Below, in pieces: positions 17,391-50,460 of a stretch of DNA of 64,000 bases. The stretch comes from Prochlorococcus marinus subsp. marinus str. CCMP1375 (GTDB taxonomy: Bacteria > Cyanobacteriota > Cyanobacteriia > PCC-6307 > Cyanobiaceae): assembly GCF_000007925.1 (NCBI RefSeq), contig NC_005042.1:930001-994000 (forward strand), in the 5' to 3' direction. How positions within the stretch are numbered: the stretch's first letter is position 1; every line of letters starts with the position of its first letter. The position numbers were made by a program, and so were the translations under genes. Under the pieces are notes generated by a model that was given only the letters and a program-made list of their open reading frames with translations, did no database searches and was not told the DNA's origin.

Positions 17391-17429
17391 ATGAATTCAA
17401 ATCTTATTATTGGCCTCATTAAGCAATGA
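17391..17429 (+). promoter_or_regulatory. Leader mini-ORF (12 codons) with strong SD before membrane GTPase gene
   Basis: AAAGGAG at 17378-17384 precedes ATG 17391 by six bases. The frame MNSNLIIGLIKQ ends in TGA at 17427-17429, which overlaps the GTPase ATG at 17426 (ATGA). The GTPase has no SD of its own in range. The 12 residues are too few for a stable protein, so a coupling or leader role is proposed; expression is unproven. Confidence 0.42.
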
Positions 17430-18988
17430 CTAGAAAAGTAAGATTATTTACTATTCTCCTTTTAATACCTATTGTTGGTATTTTGTCAGGTTTGATAGGG
17501 GCATTATTTAAATTAATAAATATTCAAACAATACTTATTTCTTTATTTATTCTTGCTATTTATTCAAATTCTAAAGCTATAAGAATTTTCAAAGTTTTAG
17601 CTAAAAAAGGTCAATTTTATCTACGAAAACATAAGGATTACAAAACTATTCCTAAGAATAAAAATGATGCGGCAAGAAGAAGTTTAAAAAGTATAGATCA
17701 ATTAACCTCACTTATTCAAAATCAAATTGCAGCACAAGCTCTTAGATATGAAAAGCAACGCGTTGAGAAGGAATTATTAAGAGGAGACTTATTAGTTGCA
17801 GTTTTTGGGCCAGGTTCTAGTGGTAAAACTGCCTTAGTGAGATCCCTTCTTAACAAAATCGTTGGTCATGTAGCTCCTTCTATGGGTTCTACAACTAAAA
17901 CAAACATTTATCGCCTAAAGTTAAAGAGTCTTAGAAGAGGTTTAAAAATAATCGATACGCCAGGGATCCTCGAAGGAGGGGTCCATGGCCGTTCAAGGGA
18001 AAAAGAAGCAATTATTAAAGCAAGTCAAGCAGACCTAATAATATTTGTAGTCGATAGCGACTTGCGCTCATACGAAATGGAAATGATTGTAAATCTTTCC
18101 AAAGTTGGGAAAAAACTATTTATTGTTCTAAATAAATCTGATCTTCGTGGAGAAAAGGAGAAAGCTAAACTTATTTCGTTATTAGAGAATCGTACCCAAG
18201 GAATTGTTGATATAGAAAACATAATCGCAACTTCTGCATCACCTCAAACAATACCAATAATCGGAAGTAATCCTTTGCAACCTAAGCCTGATATAAATCA
18301 ACTAATCAAGCGTATGGCAATAGTTCTACATCAAGAAGGTGAAGAACTTATAGCCGACAACATTTTGCTTCAATGTAGGAATCTAGGCACTTCAGGAAGA
18401 CGATTACTAGACAAGCAACGATTAGCTACATCTCAGCGATGTGTCGAAAGGTATACATGGATCAGCAGCGGCGTAGTATTCATTACTCCTCTCCCTGTTA
18501 TAGATTTACTAGGAGCTGCAGTTGTTAATGGGCGAATGGTAATGGACATTTCTAAGATTTATGGTGTTGAATTGACAAAAGATAGAGCAAAAAGTCTTGC
18601 TATGTCTGTAGGTCAAACCATTGCTGGACTTGGAATAGTTAAAGGAGGTGTATCTCTAATTAGCAATTCTCTAAGCCTACATTTACCAACATATCTAGTT
18701 GGTAAAACTATTCAGAGTGTAAGTGCTGCTTGGCTTACACAAGTTGCTGGCGAAAGTTTTATAACATATTTCCAGCAAGATCAAAACTGGGGAGACGGAG
18801 GGGTTCAAGAGGTCGTTCAACATCATTACAATCTAAATAGACGCGAATACACTCTCAGGGCCTTCATTCGAGCTGCAATGAATAGAGTTATAGAACCACT
18901 GGAGAAAAAAATTAATAACAAGCAACTACCATCGCGCCCAAGGCCTCCGGAGGAGGAGGAAGCATGGGGCCTCGAGCATCGAGAATAG
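17426..18988 (+). CDS. Membrane-anchored GTPase with DUF697 (YcjF-like) domain
   Basis: The protein (520 residues) begins with two hydrophobic segments (about 6-55). A GTPase domain follows: P-loop VAVFGPGSSGKTALVRSLL (about 129), IIDTPGILEGG (G3), DLIIFVVDSDLR and VLNKSDLRGE (G4). The C-terminal third (about 345-480) is the DUF697 module with VVFITPLPVIDLLGAAVVNG and GKTIQSVSAAWLTQVAGES. The substrate is unknown; related proteins act at membranes. Its last 26 codons overlap, antisense, the small ORF at 18912-19079. A degenerate paralogue lies at 48296-49642. The neighbour lspA ends 46 bases upstream. Confidence 0.84.
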   Translation: MTRKVRLFTILLLIPIVGILSGLIGALFKLINIQTILISLFILAIYSNSKAIRIFKVLAKKGQFYLRKHKDYKTIPKNKNDAARRSLKSIDQLTSLIQNQIAAQALRYEKQRVEKELLRGDLLVAVFGPGSSGKTALVRSLLNKIVGHVAPSMGSTTKTNIYRLKLKSLRRGLKIIDTPGILEGGVHGRSREKEAIIKASQADLIIFVVDSDLRSYEMEMIVNLSKVGKKLFIVLNKSDLRGEKEKAKLISLLENRTQGIVDIENIIATSASPQTIPIIGSNPLQPKPDINQLIKRMAIVLHQEGEELIADNILLQCRNLGTSGRRLLDKQRLATSQRCVERYTWISSGVVFITPLPVIDLLGAAVVNGRMVMDISKIYGVELTKDRAKSLAMSVGQTIAGLGIVKGGVSLISNSLSLHLPTYLVGKTIQSVSAAWLTQVAGESFITYFQQDQNWGDGGVQEVVQHHYNLNRREYTLRAFIRAAMNRVIEPLEKKINNKQLPSRPRPPEEEEAWGLEHRE

Positions 18989-44079: not shown

Positions 44080-44430
44080 ATGTTTAACCCAGAGTTTATT
44101 GCTACTGATAACAACGATGGAAGTGAAGGAAATGCTCTTATCCAATATCTACAGGAACAATCTCCAGATGTTCTTCAACGAGTAGCAAAATCAGCCAGCC
44201 CAGAGATTCAAGACATTATTCGGCATAATGTTCAAGGTCTTCTAGGCATGCTTCCAGGTGATCAATTTGAAGTAAAAATCACTTCATCAAGAGACCATTT
44301 TGCAAATCTTCTAGCATCAGCAATGATGACTGGCTATTTCCTCAGGCAAATGGAACAAAGGAAAGAATTGGAAGAATCACTCATAACAGATGAAGAAATG
44401 TCCATAAAACCAGATGAGCTTAATCTCTAA
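44080..44430 (+). CDS. DUF760 family protein
   Basis: The 116-residue protein is a cyanobacterial/plastid family of unknown function. It begins MFNPEFIATDNND and continues ALIQYLQEQSPDVLQRVAKSASPEIQDIIRHNVQGLLGMLPGDQFEV and SSRDHFANLLASAMMTGYFLRQMEQR. This is a helical DUF760 core with a conserved LGMLP turn. I chose ATG 44080; a longer frame from 43978 is largely the antisense-like overlap with lepB. The 3' end overlaps the DUF4336 gene by 11 bases, convergent. Confidence 0.75.
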   Translation: MFNPEFIATDNNDGSEGNALIQYLQEQSPDVLQRVAKSASPEIQDIIRHNVQGLLGMLPGDQFEVKITSSRDHFANLLASAMMTGYFLRQMEQRKELEESLITDEEMSIKPDELNL

Positions 44431-45616
44431 AAGCCTTTAACGGATTTTTAGGGACAATATTTTTGTTCAATAAAATTTGATCAAGCTTTCCTAAGAAAGA
44501 CCAGCTTTTCTCAGATGGAGCCCATTCTGAAAAATTTATTTTGTTCCTTAGAGCTTTGCAATCACTATCATTAAAGTTAATTGGGGCTGAATAATGAGCA
44601 GGAATAATTCTTTTCATTCCTTTAATAGCTTTTATTTCATCTAGCCATCTGAGGAACTCTGACTTAGCTCTAGGAAAAACAAGTCTTTCGATTACTGGAG
44701 CAACTTGCAAAAGAGGACTTTTTACACCGATTATTTCTTCAGTAGATAATTCCCAATTTTTTTCCCATTCAAAGGGATAAATGCCGAAATGAGATTTCCA
44801 ATTACGAAGTCCTGGTTTAAAGCAATTTTTAATGATCGTTTTTATAGAAGGAATTTTCAATTGATCTGGTTTTAAATATGAAGCAAATAACACAAGCCTT
44901 TTCCATCCTTTTTTTCTTAAAGAAAAAGAATCCTTAAGAGGTTCATCCCCCTTTTCTCTTGCATGAAACAAAAGAGGCGTGGGATCTAAGTCAAATATTT
45001 CAGGAGGTTCAGATTCAATTCCAATCAGTGCATCGGTCACAAGCAAAGATTGTGATTCTTTATGGTAACAAGAAATTTCCTGGAATCTACCAAGGCCAAT
45101 ATCTATAGGCCCTAAAGAAATCCATCTACAGCTATCTTGATGTGGCAACCCATCTGCAAATAGTGTTCTGGTTCTATTTGGTGGGAAGCCTAACCAAGTT
45201 AACGGTAATGCTAAAGGGAAACTCCACTGACCTGGACAAAGCCAAAGAGTAGCTTTAGGAAATGCACGTGCCATAGCAGGCATAGGGATCTTGTGCTCTA
45301 ATCCAGAAGCAGTTGGGAGTACTATTGTGCATATCGGACCATGCTTCTGTTGTAGAACTTTTAAACTGTCAATTAAAGCTTTAGTTGGAGGAAGAGGATT
45401 AAATAACATCAAACCTTTCGGAACTTTAACAACGGTCATTCTTATAGGGACAGCTACATAATAAAGTCCTTGTAATTGTTCAAAACACCAAACCTTTTCT
45501 GAGACTAATTCTTTAAATATAGTGTTCCTAGTACCATATGGGTAAAGAGGAAATAAGGGCCACCAAAACCAATTGCTATTTTGATTAAAATTATATGTTT
45601 GTAAATCAGACCCCAT
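44420..45616 (-). CDS. DUF4336 family protein
   Basis: The protein (398 residues) is of unknown function, conserved in cyanobacteria and plants. Recognisable blocks are FPLYPYGTRNTIFKELV, FEQLQGLYYVAVPIRMTVVKV, GLMLFNPLPPT, TIVLPTASGLEHKIPMPAMARAFPKATLWLCPGQWSFP, and LLVTDALIGI. Some DUF4336 members resemble metallo-beta-lactamase-fold proteins, but no HxHxDH is visible here, so activity is unlikely to be canonical. It starts at ATG 45616, two bases after mntB's end. Confidence 0.75.
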   Translation of the reverse strand: MGSDLQTYNFNQNSNWFWWPLFPLYPYGTRNTIFKELVSEKVWCFEQLQGLYYVAVPIRMTVVKVPKGLMLFNPLPPTKALIDSLKVLQQKHGPICTIVLPTASGLEHKIPMPAMARAFPKATLWLCPGQWSFPLALPLTWLGFPPNRTRTLFADGLPHQDSCRWISLGPIDIGLGRFQEISCYHKESQSLLVTDALIGIESEPPEIFDLDPTPLLFHAREKGDEPLKDSFSLRKKGWKRLVLFASYLKPDQLKIPSIKTIIKNCFKPGLRNWKSHFGIYPFEWEKNWELSTEEIIGVKSPLLQVAPVIERLVFPRAKSEFLRWLDEIKAIKGMKRIIPAHYSAPINFNDSDCKALRNKINFSEWAPSEKSWSFLGKLDQILLNKNIVPKNPLKAFRD

Positions 45617-45618
45617 AG

Positions 45619-46494
45619 TTAATGTGGATTTGAATTGTTAATCTTTAAAATCCCATACCTAGGAGCAAAAAGAAATGCCAAAAGGAAAATGAAAGTCTGA
45701 ACAAGTACAATAGAGCCACCAGTTTCAATATCCGACCAATAACTTATATATACTCCTAGCAAACTAGAGATCATGCTGCTAATAACAGCTAGTAAAGTCA
45801 TTCTATCGAAACGATCAGTTAATAAATATGCTGTTGCTCCTGGGGTAATCAACATTGCTACTACCAATATAATGCCTACAGTCTGTAATCCTGCGACAGC
45901 TGCCAATGAAAGTACTGATAGTAATAGATAATGAAGAAATACTGTATTAATACCAATTGATCTAGCATGTTTTGCATCAAAACAATAAAGCATTAAATCT
46001 TTTCTAAATATTAGTAATATAGCAAGTACGATTATACAAATTAGGACAGTTTGATTGACATCAGAATTTGATATACCCAATGGACTACCAAATAAAATAT
46101 GCATTAAGTCAATATTACTTTTTATCTTAGAAACTAAAACTAAACCCAAAGCAAAGAAACCAGTAAAAACTAAGCCAATTACAGTATCTTCTTTGACTCT
46201 AGATTTTTGTTTTACAAAACCAATTAAAGCTACTGAACCCACTCCAAAAACAAATGCTCCAACTGAAAAGGGAATACCAATAGCATAGGCAACTACAACC
46301 CCTGGCATGACGGCATGTGATACCGCATCACCCATTAAGGCCCAACCTTTAAGGGTCATATAACAAGAAAGTAATCCACAAACACCTCCAACCAAAGCAC
46401 TAATAGCAAGTGCCCTTCTCATGAAATCATGCGCAAGTGGATCTACCAATAATGAATAAGGGTATGAAGTAATGAAGAGATTCAGCACATTCAT
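45619..46494 (-). CDS. mntB: Mn2+/Zn2+ ABC transporter permease
   Basis: The protein (291 residues) is a ZnuB/MntB-type permease (ABC-3) with about eight membrane segments. Landmarks are GWALMGDAVSHAVMPGVVVAYAIG, FVFGVGSVALIGF, SIGINTVFLHYLLL, VGIILVVAMLITPGATAYLLTDRF and GVYISYWSDIETGGSIVL. The ATG at 46494 overlaps the mntA stop (ATGA). It completes a C-A-B operon. Manganese is the likely substrate because the partner binding protein lacks the His-rich loop of ZnuA; the choice between Mn and Zn is inferred. Confidence 0.88.
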   Translation of the reverse strand: MNVLNLFITSYPYSLLVDPLAHDFMRRALAISALVGGVCGLLSCYMTLKGWALMGDAVSHAVMPGVVVAYAIGIPFSVGAFVFGVGSVALIGFVKQKSRVKEDTVIGLVFTGFFALGLVLVSKIKSNIDLMHILFGSPLGISNSDVNQTVLICIIVLAILLIFRKDLMLYCFDAKHARSIGINTVFLHYLLLSVLSLAAVAGLQTVGIILVVAMLITPGATAYLLTDRFDRMTLLAVISSMISSLLGVYISYWSDIETGGSIVLVQTFIFLLAFLFAPRYGILKINNSNPH

Positions 46495-47276
46495 TCATCC
46501 GAAGAGATTGGTCCTGAAATAGGATCTGATTTCATGCCTCCAAAAGTCATTGAAAGATTTTCAGAAGTAAAGACATCTGAAGTGTTTCCATATGCAAGAA
46601 CAGTCTTGTTTATAAGAACAACAACATCACAAAAGTTTCGTACATGACTAAGATCATGAGTTGAAATCAAGATTGACCTGCCGTCCTGTCTTAATTGTAG
46701 AAATAGATCTGCCATCAGTTTCTCTGTCCGTATATCAACTCCAGCAAAGGGTTCATCTAACAATAGAACTGAAGCTCTTTGAGCAATTGCTCTGGCGACA
46801 AAAGCTCTTTTACGTTGTCCTCCAGAAAGAGCACCTATTGGTCTATTACGAAAATCTATTAAATCTACTCTCTCTAGAGCATCAAAAACAGCTATGTGAT
46901 CTGATTCTCTAGGGACTCTTAAAAAATTCATTGAGCCATATCTACCCATCATTACAACATCCCAAACGCTTACAGGGAAAGAGCAATCAACTCCTTCGTT
47001 TTGAGGGACATAAGCTACAGCTTGATCTTTCTGAGCTGTGGAAACTGAACATCCATTTATAAGAATTCTTCCTCTAGAAGGACGTACAAAGCCCATCAAT
47101 GCTTTAAAAAATGTCGTTTTTCCTGCTCCATTCATTCCGACCAGGCCACATATGCATCCAGGTTGAAGCTTTAAACTTGCATCATAAAGGGCAAGATTAC
47201 CGTTGTAATCTACGCATACTTGATCTGCATCTATACGCAAAGGAACAAATGTATCTTTATTTGGAATAACTGCCAT
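46491..47276 (-). CDS. mntA: Mn2+/Zn2+ ABC transporter ATPase
   Basis: The 261-residue nucleotide-binding subunit shows CGLVGMNGAGKTTFFKALMG (Walker A), AVAYVPQNEGVDCSFPVSVWDVV (Q-loop), ALSGGQRKRAFVARAIAQ (signature), VLLLDEPFAGVD (Walker B) and ISTHDLSHV (H-loop). The VPQNEGVDxSFPVSV block is typical of Mn/Zn ABC ATPases. I chose ATG 47276 over the TTG two codons upstream. It ends with ATGA overlap into mntB and starts 12 bases after mntC. Confidence 0.9.
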   Translation of the reverse strand: MAVIPNKDTFVPLRIDADQVCVDYNGNLALYDASLKLQPGCICGLVGMNGAGKTTFFKALMGFVRPSRGRILINGCSVSTAQKDQAVAYVPQNEGVDCSFPVSVWDVVMMGRYGSMNFLRVPRESDHIAVFDALERVDLIDFRNRPIGALSGGQRKRAFVARAIAQRASVLLLDEPFAGVDIRTEKLMADLFLQLRQDGRSILISTHDLSHVRNFCDVVVLINKTVLAYGNTSDVFTSENLSMTFGGMKSDPISGPISSDE

Positions 47277-47288
47277 TATCAAATTTTG

Positions 47289-48164
47289 TTATTTAGAAAA
47301 ACCTTCAAGAATTAACTGTACGTTATGTCGTTGAAGGTCAAGGAATGTTGAGGCTGGTCCGTCCGAATCTGACAATGAATCAACATAAAATTTACCACCA
47401 AAACTGGTGTTAGTGATTCTCGCAACTTCCTTTTGTGCTTTGGCACTCACAGTGGTTTCACAAAATATTACAGGGACTTTGGTTTCTCTTATTTTCGCTA
47501 TGAGCCGCTCCATTCTTCTAGGGGTCACTTGACTCTCGGCATTAACTGGCCACAAATAAGCCTCTTCAAATCCATAGTCTTCAGCTAAATAAGATAAGGC
47601 TCCTTCGCAGCTAACTAATATTCTTTTTTTTGAAGGAATTGACTTCAGTGCAAATGACAATTCTTTATCTAATGCCAACAACTCCTGCTTATATGCTTGA
47701 CCATTTTTTAAATAAATGGCTTTACCTTCTGGATCAATGAAAATAAATGCTTTGACGATCTTGTCTACGTAATGTAAGGCCCTATTTGGTGACATCCATG
47801 CATGTGGATTAGGCTTACCTTTATAAGCATCTCCTGCAATATTTAAGGGTTCCATTCCTTCTGATAAAACTACAGTCGGGATATCCTTATTTAATGAAGA
47901 AATGAATTTCTTAGCCCAAAGCTCAAGACCAAAGCCATTCTCTAGAATCAAGTCAGAATTTGCTGCATTAACTAAATCACTTGGTGTTGGCTTGTATCCA
48001 TGAATCTCTGCACCTGGCTTAGTAATAGATTGAACATCTAATCGATCTCCAGCTATATTTTTAGCAATGTCTGCAAGTACAGTAAAAGTAGTTAAAACTT
48101 TAAGTCTGTCCGGATCCTTAGATGAGTAACTTCTTTCAACTGTCGCCTTACAAGAAAGCATCAA
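47289..48164 (-). CDS. mntC: Mn2+/Zn2+ ABC transporter substrate-binding lipoprotein
   Basis: The protein (about 291 residues from TTG 48164) has the metal ligands of cluster A-I binders: His in PGAEIHGYKP, His in NPHAWMSPNRALHYVDK, Glu in VSCEGALSYLAEDYG and an Asp near the end (YVDSLSDSD). There is no His-rich loop, favouring Mn over Zn. It begins right before a lipobox-like MLSC. The frame upstream encodes a fine signal peptide (TKYFSRLSLILTISLL), but it holds only ATT/ATC codons, no usual start. A start as far as 48224 is therefore possible. mntC leads the mntCAB operon. Confidence 0.88.
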   Translation of the reverse strand: MMLSCKATVERSYSSKDPDRLKVLTTFTVLADIAKNIAGDRLDVQSITKPGAEIHGYKPTPSDLVNAANSDLILENGFGLELWAKKFISSLNKDIPTVVLSEGMEPLNIAGDAYKGKPNPHAWMSPNRALHYVDKIVKAFIFIDPEGKAIYLKNGQAYKQELLALDKELSFALKSIPSKKRILVSCEGALSYLAEDYGFEEAYLWPVNAESQVTPRRMERLIAKIRETKVPVIFCETTVSAKAQKEVARITNTSFGGKFYVDSLSDSDGPASTFLDLQRHNVQLILEGFSK

Positions 48165-48295: not shown

Positions 48296-49642
48296 TTAAG
48301 TAATAACTGCTCTCTGATCCTTTAGCTGTTCTTTAATCCAATCCCTGGATTGATTTACAAAACTAGTCCAATCAACTTTTTCTTTTTCTGCAGCTTGAGC
48401 TATTAGAGCAGGAGCTTGGAGCTTGAGCAATTCTAAATCTGGCTTTGAAACTCCATTGTTCAATGCCATCCAATCTGCCATTGAAGTTCCAACAACTCTA
48501 GTTAGATAAGCAGCACTAATTGCTTGAATAGCACCTGCTGCCAACCAAGTGCTTCCATGAAGCTTGGCGACCCCAAGAAGGGCCTGTCCACTCCATTCAA
48601 CAACCCCTTGAGATAATGCAGCTATAGCCAGTTGACGAGCGACAGCATTTAATAAATCAGGTTTAACATCACATGACCATAATTTGCCCATTTCCTGGAT
48701 CATTAAACCATTTACAACTGCTACGGATAACAAATCAGTAGAAGGAACTGGAGAAGCAAAAACCGCTCCTGCTACAAGCCATTGAGAACGGTTTTGAATG
48801 TCACGGAATTTAGTTCTTCTCAAGCCCTCTAAATCAGCCTGCCATGAGGAATGAAGCCTTGAAAGTAATCTTCTACGAGTTTGATCAACATTCTTTTTAG
48901 GTTGTTCTAAACACCGCCTAACTGGGGTTAGAGCTTTCTTCATATTTTCTAGAGATTCATCGCATTTTAAAACTCGGTTTATCCATCTTTCTGGCAATTG
49001 AGATTGAAGTGCTTTTAATTGATCAGGCCAGTCATCTTGATCGTCAAAATTAACTGCTATCCACGACGGCAATTCTTGTGGAACTTTTTCAAGCCATAAC
49101 AAATCAACTGCCCGAAGAGGGAGTGGCAAATAATAAAGAATTAAATCTTGTTCAAAAAGATGTGAAGGGAATTCCCATGATTGATTATCAATAGGAAGTG
49201 ATGCGGAACAAGATAAATTTAAGGGGCTAGAACATTTTAGAGCTGACTGCAATAAATCATTTTGAGGCAAATCAATTCCTTTAGTGCTTAGTACAGAAAG
49301 AGATTGAGAAGCATCCCTAGTAAGAATCTCTTGAAGTGATTCCGCCCTTTGAGTAGCCTTTAAAAAATGTTCAGATGGCTCTTCCAGAAATTCAAATTGT
49401 TTTAAAACAGCATTGCAACGCTTAATCCATCCTTTTACAGTTGATGGTGAGTTAAAAGAAACCGAAGAAGGCTTAGACAAAAACAAAATACCTGCACCTG
49501 CAACAAATACAGCAATTCCTCCTGAAGGAATATGAATCAAGTCACTAACTACCCATTGACCAGCTATAAATGATCCAAGGAGAATTCCAACCTTACCCAC
49601 TGGTAAAGAAGGAATTTTGAAAGATTCAAGAAAATTTTTCAT
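48296..49642 (-). CDS. DUF697 membrane protein, degenerate GTPase paralogue
   Basis: The protein (448 residues) resembles the GTPase at 17426. It has two N-terminal membrane segments (about 15-58) and a C-terminal DUF697 module with AGAVFASPVPSTDLLSVAVVNGLM and AAGAIQAISAAYLTRVVG. Between them, DLILYYLPLPLRAVDLLWLE and WIAVNFDDQDDW align with that GTPase's DLIIFVVD and VLNKSD regions. The G4 NKxD is NFDD here, and no P-loop GxxxxGKT/S is present. It is therefore likely to be unable to bind GTP, a pseudo-GTPase. Its role is unknown. It precedes mntC by about 130 bases. Confidence 0.78.
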   Translation of the reverse strand: MKNFLESFKIPSLPVGKVGILLGSFIAGQWVVSDLIHIPSGGIAVFVAGAGILFLSKPSSVSFNSPSTVKGWIKRCNAVLKQFEFLEEPSEHFLKATQRAESLQEILTRDASQSLSVLSTKGIDLPQNDLLQSALKCSSPLNLSCSASLPIDNQSWEFPSHLFEQDLILYYLPLPLRAVDLLWLEKVPQELPSWIAVNFDDQDDWPDQLKALQSQLPERWINRVLKCDESLENMKKALTPVRRCLEQPKKNVDQTRRRLLSRLHSSWQADLEGLRRTKFRDIQNRSQWLVAGAVFASPVPSTDLLSVAVVNGLMIQEMGKLWSCDVKPDLLNAVARQLAIAALSQGVVEWSGQALLGVAKLHGSTWLAAGAIQAISAAYLTRVVGTSMADWMALNNGVSKPDLELLKLQAPALIAQAAEKEKVDWTSFVNQSRDWIKEQLKDQRAVIT

Positions 49643-49890: not shown

Positions 49891-50460
49891 ATGGGTGATT
49901 CCTACGGCGATCCTCAAAAAGGAAGAAGCTTTGATGGCAATCGAGATGGAGGAAGGGCTGGATTCAGGGGTGGTCGAGGTGGCGGAAACAGAGAAGGTGG
50001 GGGCTTCCGTATTCGACTAAGTGATAATGAAATGAAAGCTTCAAGAGCCATACAAGAGGCCTTTAACTTACGATCTACCGTTGCAGTTCTAGGATTTGCA
50101 ATTCGAACCCTTGGTCAATTACTGGAAGAAGGGAAACTAGATGAATTTCTCAATGAATATAGATCCAATTCACCACGAGGAGCAGCTAACAATAATCAAC
50201 CTGAGAGAAATGGTGGAAGTAATAATTATCAGTCGACTAAAAAAGCAAAGCCAAATCCATTTGCAAGACCATCCAAACCAGAATCACAATTAGCAGAGCC
50301 AATTCAAGATGGACATGAAGAATCTTCTAAAGAAAAAGAATTGAATACAGAATCTTCAATAGAGTCTAAAAAAGAAGACGAGCTCAATGATGCTAAATCT
50401 ATAGAGACTGATAAAGACGTTACTAATGAAAAAGAAAAATCTATGCCAACTGAAGAATAA
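49891..50460 (+). CDS. RGG-rich protein with RHH-like core, unknown function
   Basis: I do not recognise a named family. The 189-residue protein has three parts. First, a Gly/Arg-rich head (about 1-50, RGG motifs such as FRGGRGGG), typical of RNA-binding tails. Second, a compact core (about 49-90, FRIRLSDNEMKASRAIQEAFNLRS, then a helix with AIRTLGQLLEEGK), whose strand-helix-helix order resembles ribbon-helix-helix DNA-binding proteins. Third, a low-complexity tail rich in Glu, Lys and Ser. The RHH resemblance is my inference. The gene precedes trpS by five bases, so cotranscription is likely. The 248 bases before it (49643-49890) hold no gene. Confidence 0.62.
   Translation: MGDSYGDPQKGRSFDGNRDGGRAGFRGGRGGGNREGGGFRIRLSDNEMKASRAIQEAFNLRSTVAVLGFAIRTLGQLLEEGKLDEFLNEYRSNSPRGAANNNQPERNGGSNNYQSTKKAKPNPFARPSKPESQLAEPIQDGHEESSKEKELNTESSIESKKEDELNDAKSIETDKDVTNEKEKSMPTEE

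Follow-up and report, generated by a model that had tools for sequence, protein, structure and literature searches.

The question raised by this locus is whether the DUF697 protein encoded at 48296-49642 is a membrane GTPase that has lost its catalytic motifs and, if so, which active GTPase it might work with. The window, by which we mean the whole stretch of 64,000 nucleotides of Prochlorococcus marinus CCMP1375 DNA analysed here, encodes two DUF697 proteins, A and B, and a third, C, is encoded elsewhere in the genome; the family labels A, B, C, C1 and C2 were coined in this analysis. The features concerned are the following.

48296..49642, minus strand: family B protein P0001, 448 aa, a DUF697 pseudo-GTPase and picocyanobacterial orthologue of the slr1306 family
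49478..49600, minus strand: N-terminal hydrophobic helix hairpin of B (residues about 15-55), a predicted membrane anchor modelled with low confidence
48884..49318, minus strand: degenerate G domain of B (residues about 109-253), an alpha/beta core without G1, G3 or G4 motif
49256..49288, minus strand: former P-loop position of B (residues about 119-129, STKGIDLPQND), aligning close to GAPGVGKT in L103, a B orthologue that has the P-loop
48422..48862, minus strand: DUF697 domain of B (residues 261-407)
17426..18988, plus strand: family A protein P0002, 520 aa, a membrane DUF697 GTPase with GPGSSGKT, DTPG and NKSD

The reading frame of B was uninterrupted. Against DUF697 (PF05128, gathering cut-off 27.7), B scored 111.4 bits and A 182 bits, and both proteins had the same order of parts, with an N-terminal hydrophobic hairpin, an alpha/beta middle and the DUF697 helices, which bears out the claim of an earlier note that the two are DUF697 proteins of common topology. 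A motif scan of P0001 found no G....GK[ST], no D.PG and no N[KR]xD, so that the protein lacks the marks of an active TRAFAC-type GTPase, and no GTPase family was listed for it in Pfam or NCBIfam at E 1. The P-loop, already reported missing from B in that note, was absent from all 57 named picocyanobacterial B loci and from all 14 picocyanobacterial (f1) genomes of a separate draw. D-x-[PASF]-G was likewise found in 0/57 picocyanobacterial relatives and [NT]KxD in the G4 region of a single one (1/57); the NFDD of P0001 was not conserved, other picocyanobacterial B proteins varying at this place, so it does not represent a kept G4 motif. Among these loci, the B gene of L051 was split by a frameshift or assembly error, with both pieces lacking a P-loop, and that of L041 was cut by a contig end.

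We then compared B with A and C. The C protein (G000:C1:1453404-1454726, 440 aa) carries GRVGVGKS, DTPG and NRCD, and its gene is flanked by a CNNM/CBS gene and a cytidylyltransferase-like one. BLASTP aligned A with B in the DUF697 part only (27% identity, E 1e-17). Profile-profile comparison aligned residues 163-439 of P0001 with 200-491 of P0002 at a probability of 98.9%, pairing DLILYYLP with DLIIFVVD and NFDD with NKSD exactly as had been proposed from the letters. A bridge profile built from B relatives outside the picocyanobacteria (10 rows, 6 with P-loop) matched A across the G domain (probability 100, E 1.9e-58) and matched picocyanobacterial B (probability 99.9, E 2.8e-35), so that through these relatives most of the middle domain aligns between B and A. 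The homology is thus not confined to DUF697 but extends into the middle domain.

The AlphaFold2 model of B (45 sequences, pLDDT 75.8, pTM 0.67) comprised strand 113-119, helix 128-134, strand 141-146 and strand 167-172 in its first half, followed by helix 178-186, strand 193-198, helix 205-215, strand 224-227 and the long DUF697 helices. A model of A made from one sequence reached pLDDT 39.3 and was discarded. Foldseek against the PDB gave weak matches to the B model (best E 5e-3), with CENP-M in the second row and with membrane receptors and receiver domains among the other hits. VIA-align, run over the best 1000 chains from Foldseek, gave 50 rows (Z 9.7 to 12.0) that mostly covered residues 109-267; where a title named the chain, it was a GTPase or GTPase-like, some rows being named only by their complex. 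The scores included Fzo1 (12.0), IIGP1 (10.9), Era (10.7), EngB (10.7) and CENP-M (10.2), while BDLP scored 10.9 with an rmsd of 18.5, at which a whole-chain superposition is not meaningful. No DUF697 structure was recognised among the VIA-align rows, which proves nothing, and a sequence profile (A6) found nothing convincing among PDB sequences (best E 0.16). These comparisons support a G-domain-like core in B as a predicted fold; they bear on fold, not on function. Since neither a GTPase family in Pfam or NCBIfam nor a convincing profile match in the PDB was obtained, sequence search alone misses the G fold of picocyanobacterial B.

Phylogeny kept A, B and C apart in a set of 57 DUF697 proteins. 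In a further tree, picocyanobacterial B joined L103 (99/98*) within the B group, to which L122 and L127 also belong. The latter two scored 618 and 657 bits with slr1306_fam (NCBIfam NF049994, cut-off 490); P0001 (114.4 bits), L103 (291 bits) and L109 (251 bits) scored under the cut-off. In picocyanobacteria B represents the slr1306 family by orthology; because P0001 lies below 490 bits, we term it an orthologue, not a curated member. It shares with that family the orthologous tree position, DUF697, the N-terminal membrane part and a degenerate G domain, and differs in that L122 and L127, two members that scored above the cut-off here, keep the P-loop, which the picocyanobacterial branch lost. 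A, B and C are old families, widespread in cyanobacteria. The earlier description of B as a paralogue of A therefore holds for an ancient paralogue, as the tree places it, but B is no local duplicate.

We traced the motifs across the phylum on an RpoB tree rooted with two outgroup rows, in which supports were moderate; a 16S search had given no match in 6/15 genomes. Families f40 and f47 fell outside a group uniting every other class row tested (88/99), within which f33 and f46 branched off first (83/84), followed by f44 (89/89). The B orthologues read in f33 and f46 (3/3) had P-loop, DTPG and NKTD, and those read in f44 (9/9) had P-loop, DxxG and NKTD. In the remaining families many B proteins keep the P-loop yet lack DxxG; three chance-like matches to the latter occurred in later B proteins of f39 and f9 (DYDG, DLTG and DRAG), and the distance from P-loop to G4 was 63-92 residues in the later-family examples printed, compared with 121-126 in f44. 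The P-loop was present in 85 of 110 B loci overall, in a census that had no B locus for 26/136 genomes, including all of f33, f18, f46, f35 and the basal families. Its frequency was 0/14 in f1, 3/12 in f19 and 12/13 in f5, and it was also missing from B in f13 (2/2) and f18 (1/1). The P-loop status requires at least five changes on the tree. One scored absence, in G165, is not a real loss: the B gene there (L245) is broken into ORF pieces by a frameshift or assembly error, and the P-loop sits in another piece.

A kept its P-loop, D.PG and N[KR]xD in 41/41 loci, and DxxG was also present in 6/6 further loci, early branches included. The early intact proteins of f33, f46 and f44 grouped with B in the best tree (97/86), but a tree placing them next to A was not rejected (p-AU 0.231). 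An IKVR...E segment is common to these proteins and B; no match to it was obtained in L246 or L248, and a similar segment occurs in C2. Because of this shared segment and of a C gene lying beside the early orthologue L270 (f46), we favour B over A as the family of these early intact proteins, other rootings being possible. The decay of B is graded: intact early, then DxxG lost with the P-loop often kept, then the P-loop lost.

By computation, B has thus lost its motifs, has a G-domain-like predicted fold, is orthologous to the slr1306 family and decayed by degrees over the phylum, and sequence, profile comparison, predicted fold and phylogeny all support the earlier suggestion that it is a pseudo-GTPase. 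We read B as a protein that would be a membrane-anchored pseudo-GTPase, its fold and membrane module kept and its P-loop, DxxG and NKxD lost. Judging from the lost motifs, it would handle no nucleotide, although an unusual site could still bind one.

We next considered the genes around B. The same upstream ORF stood beside B in 57/57 named picocyanobacterial loci, where B is divergent from an ORF-trpS-thrS group. This ORF, at 49891-50460 between B and trpS, is conserved, encodes 189 aa with a glycine/arginine-rich start and had no Pfam match at E 1e-5. Downstream of B lie the genes of a transporter.

45619..48164, minus strand: metal ABC transporter (ZnuA-type binding protein, ABC ATPase, ABC-3 permease), downstream of B

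The gap between B and these genes is 131 bases on the same strand, and the order recurs in most Prochlorococcus loci that extend far enough, an arrangement that would fit B as part of the transporter operon, for example as an assembly or regulatory factor; one f44 locus, L248, likewise has a related ABC-3 permease gene downstream of its B orthologue. However, neither the transporter nor the DUF4336 gene was seen within about 6 kb downstream of B in Synechococcus L048, L049 and L059, which keep B beside the trpS group (other Synechococcus loci were too short to show its presence), and among the 89 loci clustered the permease cluster comprised f1 loci only, besides L248. We consider membership of this operon highly unlikely. 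The placement of the transporter in Prochlorococcus looks as if it had arrived beside B later. The DUF4336 gene (44420-45616, 410 bits) ends the same-strand run and follows the transporter genes in Prochlorococcus loci.

Outside the picocyanobacteria, the most widespread neighbour of B was a C-type GTPase. In 31 of the 105 loci with room for it, its gene followed directly downstream of B in the same orientation; these loci fell in 8 families (f3, 1/1; f8, 1/1; f15, 5/12; f19, 3/12; f31, 4/4; f32, 1/2; f39, 13/13; f45, 3/3). Such adjacency is unlikely to arise by chance, as each genome, several megabases in size, has few of these genes. No A gene was found beside B in the loci read, which covered flanks of about 1.5 to 6 kb, or less where a contig ended. 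Gene order thus favours C over A as the putative partner of B. The 57 picocyanobacterial B loci contained neither an A nor a C gene, and in CCMP1375 itself C is unlinked to B. As C is absent beside B here and C2, the partner subfamily of C, is by our score cut absent from picocyanobacteria, the pairing may not carry over to them. Upstream of B in L178, L183 and their relatives, 7 loci in f8, f19, f31 and f45 carried CGLD27-like and asparaginase II genes on the same strand, and 3 loci of f8 and f45 also carried an RsfS gene, all three named by Pfam on single examples.

The distribution of the families was determined in 136 class genomes. At E 1e-30 the B profile, which also catches A, gave two matches in 127 genomes, one in 4 and none in 5; the 127 were not sorted singly, and one of them, G211, has two matches and no B. 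Among 101 picocyanobacterial genomes, unsorted DUF697 matches numbered three in 95, two in 3 and four in 3, and each of the five sorted genomes had one A, one B and one C. The joint occurrence of A and B in picocyanobacteria, which the earlier note had proposed to check, was therefore seen in the sorted genomes, with C equally there. Three genomes (G150, G205 and G211) had A without B, a weak sign of the independent distribution that the note had named as telling against its pairing.

C2 was called by eye from profile scores of about 475 bits or more, with G182 (314 bits, cut by a contig end) counted as C2 and G250 carrying it in two pieces. It was found in 72/136 genomes, all 72 of which have B, while 38 of 110 genomes with B lacked C2 by this score cut; the cut leaves it absent from picocyanobacteria, f10, f18 and part of f19. 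In the raw counts B had a P-loop in 70/72 genomes with C2 versus 15/38 without. After phylogenetic correction on a FastTree tree (G165 left out, five rows added), this association had no support (5-6 independent pairs, median p 1), and it weakened further when C2 was taken to include the diverged C genes that adjoin B in G193 and G229. A correlated loss of P-loop and C2 was dropped as evidence, the phylogenetic test giving no support.

These counts bear on the specific suggestion of the earlier note that B, as the inactive subunit, might form a heteromer with the A-type GTPase encoded at 17426. Most genomes have both A and B, as the 127 with two matches indicate; an N-terminal hydrophobic stretch is present in A and B and absent from the three C proteins examined; and the sorted genomes from groups without C2 by the cut (f10, f18, part of f19 and the picocyanobacteria) keep A and B. 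Against this, A was never beside B in the loci read, C co-occurs with B as well, and three genomes have A without B. We regard A as an unlikely partner, and the suggestion in its specific form was not supported.

B might also act alone or as a homo-oligomer, its G fold a leftover and its DUF697 and N-terminal membrane parts sufficient with no GTPase partner. The invariant columns of B lie mostly within the DUF697 part, and the P-loop was lost both where C2 is present (f13) and where it is absent (f1). E. coli, which contains PF05128 (our search control), offers a parallel: the gene of the P-loop NTPase YcjX adjoins that of YcjF, a DUF697 membrane protein that, unlike B, is not known to have a G domain of its own or a remnant of one. 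The alpha/beta core of B nevertheless keeps its predicted fold, and pairing of its gene with that of a GTPase is seen in 8 families, which makes a solitary B improbable in our judgement.

We therefore return to B as a pseudo-GTPase with a C-type partner. It may take part in a heteromeric membrane complex as scaffold or non-catalytic subunit, with a DUF697 GTPase as the catalytic component; this partner would be the C-type GTPase paired with B in many other cyanobacteria, not A at 17426, and the complex may serve thylakoid-related or inorganic-carbon physiology. We put the probability of this explanation as a whole, from membrane pseudo-GTPase to physiological role, at about 0.5.

Known pseudo-GTPases offer points of comparison. 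CENP-M, a human kinetochore protein not known to carry a membrane module, is called a pseudo-GTPase. Its structures (PDB 4wau, 4p0t) show a GTPase-like fold and ranked second in the Foldseek list for the B model. Among septins, activity was lost several times independently inside the hetero-oligomer, according to PMC10731463. Septins resemble B as GTPase subunits with activity lost, the heteromerisation of B being a conjecture, and differ from it as eukaryotic filament proteins without DUF697. B is most likely a membrane-held subunit without catalysis, and degenerate septins give the best working model for it. The pseudoGTPase domains of p190RhoGAP, whose deletion lowers RhoGAP activity (PMC5593906), are alike in being GTPase-like domains so termed, and differ as domains within a large eukaryotic regulator of an unrelated family. 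In the literature available to our search, which mostly leaves out subscription papers and so does not prove novelty, no cyanobacterial pseudo-GTPase was found apart from a PHLPP-titled match, and DUF697 appeared a single time in each of 6 papers.

With regard to physiology, the five genomes without a B-profile match belong to f40 (4) and f47 (1), namely G155, G166, G176, G186 and G195; none of the five had a DUF697 match over the cut-off, G176 having one below it, and the other class genomes searched with PF05128 had at least two DUF697 proteins each. We take f40 and f47 to be probably Gloeobacter and Anthocerotibacter (Gloeobacterales), which the RpoB branching fits. Neither Gloeobacter nor Anthocerotibacter is known to have thylakoids. 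The absence of DUF697 from these basal families would fit a thylakoid-linked gene set. By its title, a paper by Zhang et al. 2008, cited in PMC5472144, presents slr1306 as putatively part of the CO2-concentrating mechanism, and full-text searches of the available literature for slr1306 and sll0804 gave this citing paper alone and no mechanism for the protein. From that title and the absence in basal genomes we infer a role of B in carbon concentration or at the thylakoid. A broader scheme, in which A, B and C form one membrane GTPase machine that arose after the split from the thylakoid-less basal lineage and remodels or organises thylakoid-associated membranes for inorganic carbon concentration, with B turned from active GTPase to structural subunit in stages that living species still show, seems to us distinctly doubtful.

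Viewing Slr1306 as a GTPase in decay that probably has a catalytic one as its neighbour opens the way to a direct experiment. A single phylum spans family members with every nucleotide motif, others lacking DxxG and others lacking all of them, a natural set that can show which features a pseudo-GTPase retains. Should DUF697 indeed be absent from the basal cyanobacteria, which probably have no thylakoids, its families would be a candidate gene set for thylakoid biology.
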